Translations under genes and position numbers: made by a program | Assembly (NCBI RefSeq): GCF_000756655.1 | Contig: NZ_ARXU01000009.1 | Location: 1-64,000, forward strand | Length of the DNA: 64,000 nucleotides | From: Alcanivorax jadensis T9 | GTDB lineage: Bacteria > Pseudomonadota > Gammaproteobacteria > Pseudomonadales > Alcanivoracaceae | Reading direction: 5' to 3' | Shown: positions 47,332 through 50,206 of the stretch, in pieces | Numbering within the stretch: the first letter of the stretch is position 1 | How the letters are laid out: every line of letters begins with the position of its first letter | The notes under the pieces: model-generated | What the model saw: only the letters and a program-made list of their open reading frames with translations | Told to the model about the DNA's origin: nothing | Database searches by the model: none

Positions 47332-48015
47332 ATGATTCAGTTTGACCGGGTCAGCAAACGCTACCCGAACGGCAAAGACGCACTCAGCAAGGTGAGCTTC
47401 ACGCTCCCCGCCGGGCAGCTGACGTTTTTGACCGGTCATTCCGGGGCGGGCAAATCCACCCTGTTGAAACTGATCATGATGCTGGAGCGTCCCACCCAGG
47501 GTCAGGTACTCATTGATAACCAGAATCTGAATGGCTTCGGCAACCGGCAGATCCCACTGCTGCGCCGCAAGATCGGCATGGTTCACCAGAACCACCAATT
47601 GCTGTTCGATCGGACCGTGTTCGACAACGTGGCCCTGCCGCTGATTATCGCCGGCTATGCGCGCAGCGATATCGGCAAACGGGTGCGGGCCGCACTCGAC
47701 AAGGTGGGCCTGTTGGACAAGGAAAAGTTAAACCCGATCATGCTCTCCGGCGGCGAGCAGCAGCGCGTGGGTATCGCCCGGGCGGTGGTCAACAAGCCGC
47801 CGCTGCTGCTGGCGGACGAACCTACCGGTAACCTGGACCCGGCCCTCTCCGAGGAGATCATGGACCTGTTCAAGGATTTCGCCCGGGTTGGTGTAGCCGT
47901 GCTGATCGCCACCCACGACCTGAGCCTGATCGCCCGCTATAACCACCGCCTGCTGACCCTGCGTGAGGGGCGCCTGATCCACGACGGCGACGAAGGGGGC
48001 CACCATGGCAGCTAA
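47332..48015 (+). CDS. ftsE: Cell division ATP-binding protein FtsE
   Basis: 227 residues, ABC ATPase with Walker [10 protein letters not shown], signature [13 protein letters not shown], Walker [13 protein letters not shown] and the H-switch ATHD. With FtsX it forms a complex that activates septal cell-wall hydrolases during division. It overlaps ftsX by 11 bases, indicating coupled translation. Confidence 0.96.
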
Positions 48016-49033
48016 CAAGGGGCCCAGAAACGCCACCCCGATCAAGGCCAGCCGCCAGAAACCGGAGCGAGTGCGCCGGGTGGCCGGGGCGCACAGTGCC
48101 CGCACCTCCCTGCAGGACCGTTTCCGCAGCTGGCGTCAACACCATCAAGACTCCTTCAAGGATGCCCTGCAACGGCTTAACGCCGCACGTACCAGCAGTG
48201 CCATGACCATTCTGGTGATCGCCATCGCCCTGGCACTGCCTGCCGGGCTGGCGGTGCTGCTGGATAATGCCCGTGCCATTACCCGCGGCTGGGACGGCAA
48301 TGCCCACCTGTCCGTGTTTATGGAAATGAATATCAGCGAGCAGCGGCAAAGGGATCTGGCCAGCGACTGGCAAGGGCTGGACAACATCAGTCGCACCGAG
48401 GTGATTACCCGGGAGCAGGCGTTGGCGGAATTCAAGGCCCTGTCCGGCTTTGGCGACGTGTTGGAGGCCCTGCCGGACAACCCGCTGCCGCCGCTGATTG
48501 TGGTCTACCCGGACGAGACCGACCCGGTCACCCTGCGCGCCCTGGAAAACCGCCTGGCGGAGGCAGACGGGGTGGATCTGGTACAGCTGGATGTGGAATG
48601 GGTACGCCGCCTGCATGCCCTGATTGAACTGGGCGAACGGCTGATTTCCGCTCTCACCCTGGCGCTGGCTGCCGCGGTGGTGCTGGTGGTGGTGAACACC
48701 ATCCGCCTGGCCATCGAAAGCCGCCGGGAGGAAATCGTGGTGGTGAAGATCGTCGGCGGCACCGACGGCTTCGTGCGCCGGCCCTTCCTCTACTCCGGTT
48801 TCTGCTTCGGCTTTGCCGGCGGCGCAACGGCGGTCATCCTGGTACAGGTGGCCCTGTGGTGGCTCGGCGGGCCAATCGACGAACTACTGGCGCTGTACAA
48901 TAGTGAGGAATCACTCACATCAATGGCCGCATCCAGCCTGATCATCCTGCCCGTATTCAGTGGCATCCTGGGGCTTCTGGGCGCCTGGTTGGCCGTGGGT
49001 CGGCATCTGGGTGATATCGAGCCGAATTTTTAA
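48005..49033 (+). CDS. ftsX: Cell division permease FtsX
   Basis: 342 residues. A basic cytoplasmic N-tail, TM1 (about 60-80), a periplasmic loop of about 110 residues and three C-terminal helices typical of FtsX. It contains RLAIESRREEIVVVKIVGGTDGFVRRPF-type coupling motif before TM3. It partners FtsE; the periplasmic loop contacts EnvC-type activators. Confidence 0.95.
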   Translation: MAANKGPRNATPIKASRQKPERVRRVAGAHSARTSLQDRFRSWRQHHQDSFKDALQRLNAARTSSAMTILVIAIALALPAGLAVLLDNARAITRGWDGNAHLSVFMEMNISEQRQRDLASDWQGLDNISRTEVITREQALAEFKALSGFGDVLEALPDNPLPPLIVVYPDETDPVTLRALENRLAEADGVDLVQLDVEWVRRLHALIELGERLISALTLALAAAVVLVVVNTIRLAIESRREEIVVVKIVGGTDGFVRRPFLYSGFCFGFAGGATAVILVQVALWWLGGPIDELLALYNSEESLTSMAASSLIILPVFSGILGLLGAWLAVGRHLGDIEPNF

Positions 49034-49037
49034 CCGC

Positions 49038-49134
49038 TGCAGGAGCGGCGCTCTCTGTGGCCCGCGGGTATGAGCCGCCACGGCCTGGCACGGCTTGTCG
49101 CACGTATGTTCGCGGCTCGAGCGCCGCTCCTACA
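49038..49134. repeat. Long inverted repeat (GTAGGAGCG family)
   Basis: Arms CTGCAGGAGCGGCGCTC and GAGCGCCGCTCCTACAG are near-perfect inverse copies and enclose about 63 bases with a further smaller palindrome (GCCACGGCC/GGCACGGC). It lies between ftsX and rpoH. Confidence 0.8.
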
Positions 49135-49262
49135 GCAGACACCCCAGGAACCTTCCACTTTCATGCACGTCCAACCCTGTGTTCATCACCGGTTCACATG
49201 GCCGGCCTAGACTTGGTGATTGCTCCATCGACCCTCTCAATCGGCGGGAACCTTTTTGCCTA

Positions 49263-49289
49263 TTAGCACTCCAAAGAACCGAGTGCTAA
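49263..49289 (+). promoter_or_regulatory. CIRCE operator (HrcA site) upstream of rpoH
   Basis: TTAGCACTC (49263-49271), nine bases, GAGTGCTAA (49281-49289) is the exact CIRCE consensus. The site ends 53 bases before the rpoH start codon. A weak promoter TTAGCA ... TAAGAT (18-base spacing) would overlap it, so HrcA binding should block transcription. The repressor gene itself is not in the window. Confidence 0.9.
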
Positions 49290-49342
49290 GATCAGCGGCA
49301 CATACAGGACATAGACTGGTCTTCAACGAGGAGACAACGCGC

Positions 49343-50206
49343 ATGACAAACCCTTCAACGCAAGCACAGGCGCTGATGTTGGCCGTACCGGGTAATAACC
49401 TGGACGCCTACATGCGAGCCGTTAATGCCGTGCCGGTTCTCAGCGCAGACGACGAACAACGTTTGGCAGGACAGTATTTCTACGAACAGGACGTGGATGC
49501 CGCCCGCAACTTGGTACTCGCGCACCTGCGGTTCGTAGTGCACATCGCCCGCAGCTACACCGGCTATGGTTTGCCCCTGGGCGATCTGGTCCAGGAAGGC
49601 AATGTGGGCCTGATGAAAGCGGTGAAACGCTTCGACCCCACCAAGGGCGTACGCCTGGTGAGCTTCGCGGTGCACTGGATCAAGGCGGAAATCCACGAAT
49701 ATGTGATCAAGAACTGGCGCATCGTCAAAGTGGCCACCACCAAGGCCCAGCGCAAACTGTTCTTCAACCTGCGCGGGCAAAAGAAGCGCCTGGGTCGCCT
49801 GAGCATGGAAGAAGCGCAACGAGTGGCCGATGATCTGGGCGTTACTGCCATCCAGGTAAAAGAAATGGAAGGCCGCCTGGGTGCCTACGACGCCAGTTTC
49901 GATGGCCCCACCAACGACGACGAGGACAGCACCGTAGTGTCCCCGGCCGCGTACCTGCACAGCGACAACAGCGATCCCGCGGACCTGCTGGCCGAACAGG
50001 ATCAGCAGGAACGGGAAAGCCGCCAACTGGGCTCAGCCCTGATGGCGCTGGACGAACGCAGCCGCGACATCCTCGAGCGCCGCTGGCTGGCCGATCAGAA
50101 GTCCACCCTGCAGGACCTGGCGAACGAGTACGGCGTGTCCGCCGAGCGTATCCGCCAGCTGGAAAACAACGCCATCAAAAAGCTGCGTAACGCCATCGCA
50201 GCGTAA
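49343..50206 (+). CDS. rpoH: RNA polymerase sigma-32 factor RpoH
   Basis: 287 residues from ATG 49343 with GAGGAG upstream. Region 2 (NLVLAHLRFVVHIARSY, DLVQEGNVGLMKAV), the RpoH-specific box QRKLFFNLR, and region 4 (LQDLANEYGVSAERIRQLE) are all present. It directs heat-shock gene transcription. It follows the ftsYEX cluster, as in other gammaproteobacteria, and is preceded by a perfect CIRCE site. Confidence 0.97.
   Translation: MTNPSTQAQALMLAVPGNNLDAYMRAVNAVPVLSADDEQRLAGQYFYEQDVDAARNLVLAHLRFVVHIARSYTGYGLPLGDLVQEGNVGLMKAVKRFDPTKGVRLVSFAVHWIKAEIHEYVIKNWRIVKVATTKAQRKLFFNLRGQKKRLGRLSMEEAQRVADDLGVTAIQVKEMEGRLGAYDASFDGPTNDDEDSTVVSPAAYLHSDNSDPADLLAEQDQQERESRQLGSALMALDERSRDILERRWLADQKSTLQDLANEYGVSAERIRQLENNAIKKLRNAIAA

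Follow-up and report, generated by a model that had tools for sequence, protein, structure and literature searches.

The window considered here is a stretch of 64,000 nt from the genome of Alcanivorax jadensis T9. Within it, rpoH, encoding sigma-32 (287 aa; P0001), occupies positions 49343..50206 of the forward strand, an assignment given by the NCBIfam equivalog model TIGR02392 (rpoH_proteo; 393.6 bits, with a cut-off of 323.1). A Shine-Dalgarno sequence, GAGGAG, can be read directly at 49328..49333 (+). The TTG at 49220, which would open a reading frame running through the operator described below, was considered as the start of rpoH and rejected as not credible, since similarity to relatives begins at the ATG. 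Upstream and on the same strand lies an ORF (48005..49033) that reads, by position and translation, as ftsX. I take that name from the order ftsYEX-rpoH, and the locus as a whole reads as ftsY-ftsE-ftsX-rpoH, with the fts names assigned by way of the translations. A terminator-like site was sought in the interval between ftsX and rpoH and none was found; transcription of ftsX could read through into rpoH. The same interval contains, at 49036-49136, two GTAGGAGCGGCGCT-type elements in inverted orientation to each other, with 18-nt arms 65 nt apart. The core motif of this type has 174 copies genome-wide (reversed control: 0), often as close inverted pairs, and the repeats are a REP/BIME-like family.

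Directly upstream of rpoH, at 49263..49289 (+), is a perfect CIRCE operator, the predicted binding site of HrcA: a TTAGCACTC-N9-GAGTGCTAA palindrome with 0 mismatches, in full TTAGCACTC-CAAAGAACC-GAGTGCTAA. No other CIRCE occurs in the window when as many as 3 mismatches are allowed, and shuffled sequence gives an expectation of 0. The first-pass annotation had described an exact CIRCE 53 bases before rpoH, and the sequence bears out both the coordinates and the distance, the gap to the ATG at 49343 being 53 nt.

The same annotation proposed a promoter, TTAGCA-N18-TAAGAT, overlapping the operator. The overlap holds, and so does the position of the -10 element, which is conserved across species, but the promoter as proposed is weak: each hexamer matches at 4/6 positions, and a consensus scan reported neither above background. 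The -35-like TTAGCA (49263..49268, +) is a direct reading, 18 bp before TAAGAT. The -10 element is better described as an extended -10 of the sigma-70 type, TG-C-TAAGAT at 49284..49292 (+), which is composed of the right arm of CIRCE followed by GAT; in most of the genus the hexamer is TAATAT. What the earlier reading overlooked is a second, predicted promoter of the sigma-E/AlgU type, whose -10 element shares bases with the left arm. Its -35 element, GGAACCT (consensus GGAACTT), lies at 49247..49253 (+) in a conserved position relative to CIRCE, and its -10 element, TCCAA, at 49270..49274 (+), the TC being the last bases of the left arm. The two are separated by 16 bp, within the range of 15-17 bp for such promoters and as in the AlgU consensus, GAACTT-N16/17-TCTNN (PMC7641640). 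Both GGAACCT and TAAGAT in the window fall below consensus.

The proteins needed to use these elements are encoded in the assembly (3.63 Mb, from an Alcanivorax-type gammaproteobacterium). It contains an RpoE/AlgU orthologue (TIGR02939, 305.6 bits, cut-off 236) and one copy of hrcA, located just 5' of grpE and dnaK. The HrcA protein is a full equivalog match (TIGR00331, 309 bits) with the Pfam C-terminal domain at 215 bits; its winged-helix DNA-binding domain is a weak match, 21.2 bits at a curated cut-off of 21. A search for further CIRCE sites, suggested along with the search for hrcA as a check on the first reading, found one: at up to 3 mismatches the whole genome has exactly two, both perfect, one before rpoH and one 70 nt 5' of groES. 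No CIRCE precedes hrcA itself in the same scan, unlike the case in some gammaproteobacteria (L212, L220), where the operator stands before hrcA too (autoregulation). Sigma-32-like promoters (CTTGAAA-N13-CCCCAT, 1-2 mismatches) precede groES, grpE and dnaK and were not found upstream of hrcA or rpoH. A lone match to this pattern turns up in 3-18% of shuffled regions.

The site has been kept in close relatives. Perfect CIRCE arms are present at all 16 readable rpoH loci of the same genus (that of the window included), the 9-nt spacer varying freely among them while the arms are invariant, and perfect arms also precede rpoH in both of the other family members examined (G017 and G425). The locus of Alcanivorax sp. 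S6407 is of the same type, and the printed part of its upstream region matches that of a member of the genus (G011).

Conservation reaches beyond the operator, as seen in an alignment of 151 dereplicated rpoH CIRCE loci. The sequence GAAC starts 14 to 16 nt before CIRCE in 72 of the 151 loci and at exactly -15 in 52, where chance would provide about 0.6 per position, and the bases following the TC of the left arm favor T-A-A (TCTAA). A second register is found in 16 loci, mostly of the Comamonadaceae type, in which the -35 element is four bases closer, with GAAC at -11. In these, TC occurs at CIRCE positions 12-13 in 16/16, as against 0/72 in the first register (p = 7e-18, the two registers partly following taxonomy). 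Since the TC covaries with the register of GAAC, the sigma-E -35 and -10 elements moved together, keeping their 16-bp spacing. In the remaining 63 loci no GAAC is clear at either expected position, and most of them retain the extended -10. That element is completed on the right arm by A at +29 and T at +30 (3 nt past CIRCE), giving TGnTANNNT, and T at +30 is present in 147 of the 151 rpoH loci but in only 3 of 22 groES CIRCE sites. Nearly all of those 22 sites are without the sigma-E -35 and the extended -10 features. Given the distribution of GAAC positions, the contrast with groES and the covariation of the two registers, I reject the notion that the sigma-E match is due to chance. In four loci (L097, L098, L127 and L149), a whole sigma-E-like promoter can be read directly 5' of CIRCE with no overlap, a third arrangement.

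The arrangement is not peculiar to the genome of A. jadensis, as had been considered. When 84,980 species genomes were scanned for a CIRCE with the RpoH core motif 261-321 nt beyond it, at least 119 such loci were found. Among the matches listed are Comamonadaceae, Rhodocyclaceae, Nitrosomonas, Alcaligenaceae, Dyella, Halieaceae, Woeseiaceae, Methylococcales, Thioalkalivibrio, Rheinheimera, Pseudoalteromonas and others, with one locus each from Geobacteraceae (L079) and Zymogenaceae (L083) outside the Beta- and Gammaproteobacteria. Among 370 genomes sampled across the class Gammaproteobacteria, CIRCE precedes rpoH in 112, representing 87 of 273 genera, and a reversed control pattern gave 0 matches. 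The pattern used at class level demands perfect inner arms and a distance of 261-321 nt to the RpoH core motif, so that mismatched or differently spaced sites (that of G046, for example) escape it, and the resulting 30% is a lower bound. The first-pass annotation had taken this wiring to be unusual for gammaproteobacteria, a claim that must be given up: the arrangement is widespread in Gamma- and Betaproteobacteria, accounting for at least 30% of the class sample, and HrcA control of rpoH is already a known idea, CIRCE before rpoH having been predicted for Geobacter sulfurreducens in 2004 (PMC545781). Two loci (L201, G075:C21:35156; and G359:C16:35471-35820) seem to have a second CIRCE-like half site (GAGTGCTAA) before rpoH, a few dozen bases 3' of the first CIRCE.

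The presence of the site tracks that of hrcA. The gene was found in 277 of the 370 class-sample genomes, and CIRCE precedes rpoH in 110 of these as compared to 2 of the 93 genomes in which hrcA was not found (Fisher p = 1.6e-14). Only about 40% of the genomes with hrcA thus match the strict pattern. At the level of the order (57 genomes from about 40 families), every rpoH upstream region was read and up to 3 mismatches were allowed, and here CIRCE was found in 19/19 genomes with hrcA and 1/38 without (p = 3e-14). The tests treat related genomes as independent, making the p-values of both samples optimistic, but the split in the order sample is almost clean across the families spanned. Five genomes (G145, G304, G401, G019 and G438; 75-97% complete) have a complete or almost complete CIRCE before rpoH and no hrcA detectable by profile and protein search; in these exceptions the assembly may be incomplete, or hrcA may have been lost recently. 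The locus of one of them (L258, from G438) has perfect CIRCE arms with a spacer of 10 nt, as would fit an insertion that abolished its function.

Genomes without hrcA also show what becomes of the operator. When their rpoH upstream regions are anchored on the best sigma-E-like match, the consensus of the arms is seen to be lost (of 26 regions, 3 match at position 3 and 5 to 8 at positions 20-24), while genomes with hrcA retain nearly every arm position, a comparison that is qualitative, since some of the sigma-E anchors may be chance matches. The sigma-E-like promoter often remains where the CIRCE arms have decayed or the operator is gone, and some of these genomes have a remnant operator, such as TTCGCACTC-N9-GGATGCTAG-AAT in G427.

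HrcA control of rpoH, as the first-pass annotation proposed, is the best reading of the locus, because hrcA is present, the site is kept in the genus and family, and its presence tracks hrcA in the samples of 370 and 57 genomes. Two of the three findings that the annotation named as fatal to its proposal, a genome lacking hrcA and a site lost in close relatives, did not materialize. Very probably, then, the CIRCE is a working HrcA operator within a composite rpoH promoter, at which HrcA would block transcription by both sigma-E and sigma-70 polymerase. That HrcA binds and represses here, and that both promoters are used, I infer from the layout of the elements: GGAACCT-N16-TCCAA uses bases of the left arm and the extended -10, TGCTAAGAT, uses bases of the right arm, and so bound HrcA should block polymerase with either sigma factor. 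HrcA needs GroE in order to bind DNA, and unfolded proteins titrate GroE, freeing HrcA (reviewed in PMC6032397). If this activation, carried over from work in other species, applies here, then HrcA matured by GroEL would hold rpoH low in the absence of stress. Unfolded proteins would occupy GroEL, HrcA would leave the DNA, and rpoH would be expressed from the vegetative promoter and, under envelope stress, from the sigma-E promoter as well. The resulting sigma-32 would transcribe groESL, grpE and dnaK, and new GroEL would re-arm HrcA, closing the loop.

It is possible, but I think doubtful, that repression by HrcA is confined to the vegetative extended -10 promoter and leaves the sigma-E input to rpoH ungated, either because sigma-E polymerase out-competes HrcA or because envelope stress inactivates HrcA too. 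Both promoters overlap the operator and the sequence does not say which is blocked, and the constancy of T at +30 (147/151), together with the retention of the extended -10 by most of the 63 loci without a clear GAAC, would suit this reading. The location of the sigma-E -10 element argues against it: whether within the left arm, as in the first register, or within the spacer, as in the second, it should be blocked by a bound dimer.

A reading in which the palindrome works at the RNA level, through a hairpin in the 5'-UTR that sets the stability or translation of rpoH mRNA, is rejected as very improbable. CIRCE forms a hairpin in some groE mRNAs, and a transcript reading through from the ftsX operon would include the palindrome, but the predicted starts fall inside or past CIRCE, so that transcripts from them would not contain the full hairpin. 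Moreover, the arms are invariant rather than covarying, as befits protein binding, the site tracks hrcA, and a search of Rfam gave no match. E. coli rpoH has a thermosensor; in the window, the leader and first codons of rpoH (49290-49430) fold only modestly better than shuffled sequences (z = -2.4). Less probable still, to the point of being negligible, is the notion that the CIRCE does nothing today, being either a remnant or a product of chance. A minority of genomes without hrcA do keep CIRCE-like remnants in the same place, but none are expected by chance, and the perfect arms found throughout the genus and in hrcA-bearing lineages far from it, as well as the decay in lineages without hrcA, already contradict the idea strongly.

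In the usual accounts of the bacterial heat-shock response, HrcA repression and sigma-32 figure as alternatives or as controls that work side by side. If the control by HrcA of both rpoH promoters is real, then many Beta- and Gammaproteobacteria run the two in series: the load on GroEL would act through HrcA to set the supply of sigma-32, and envelope stress would increase sigma-32 only while HrcA was inactive. There would also be a simple origin for the sigma-E-only rpoH promoters of lineages that lack hrcA. I would give even chances to the further idea that the merged HrcA/sigma-E/sigma-70 promoter is ancestral, or at any rate very old, among Gamma- and Betaproteobacteria, and that loss of HrcA left the sigma-E-only promoters behind. 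Were this so, rpoH promoters such as those of Pseudomonas and Shewanella, and perhaps E. coli, would be such remainders, and the status of the chaperonin would gate the input of envelope stress to sigma-32. A literature search, which covered earlier heat-shock regulon surveys only in part, found no description of the overlap of sigma-E promoter and CIRCE and no account of the spread of CIRCE-rpoH in Beta- and Gammaproteobacteria. Permina and Gelfand, in 2003, reportedly treated heat-shock regulons among the beta-, gamma- and epsilon-proteobacteria, and may already list some of the sites.

Several known systems bear comparison. The HrcA/CIRCE control of groESL, including that of the groES gene in this same genome, employs the same operator and presumably the same repressor. 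Its sites, however, have a promoter of the TTGACT/TATTAT type to the left of the left arm or over it, lack the sigma-E -35, and do not conserve T at +30. In Pseudomonas and at promoter P3 of E. coli, a sigma-E/AlgU-dependent promoter stands directly 5' of rpoH, the same type of element as here, with no overlap with CIRCE reported. Similarly, sigma-E control of rpoH has been reported in Shewanella (PMC4336711), where an element of the type GAACTT-N16-TCTAT lies directly 5' of rpoH, and overlap with CIRCE was not reported. Closest in its proposed wiring, from HrcA to sigma-32, is Geobacter sulfurreducens, for which a perfect CIRCE shortly 5' of rpoH was predicted (Rodionov et al. 2004, PMC545781, Table 8) and which possesses both hrcA and sigma-32; unlike Alcanivorax, it is a deltaproteobacterium. 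The Geobacteraceae and Zymogenaceae loci found in the present scan have neither the sigma-E -35 nor T at +30, and the promoter layout therefore differs there; CIRCE before rpoH outside the Beta- and Gammaproteobacteria may be an independent arrangement. Finally, in Agrobacterium tumefaciens the two regulators coexist and converge on groE, with differential and independent roles, according to Nakahigashi et al. (1999) as cited in PMC11764788. To the extent of that citation, the two act there in parallel, whereas in Alcanivorax HrcA would act upstream of sigma-32.
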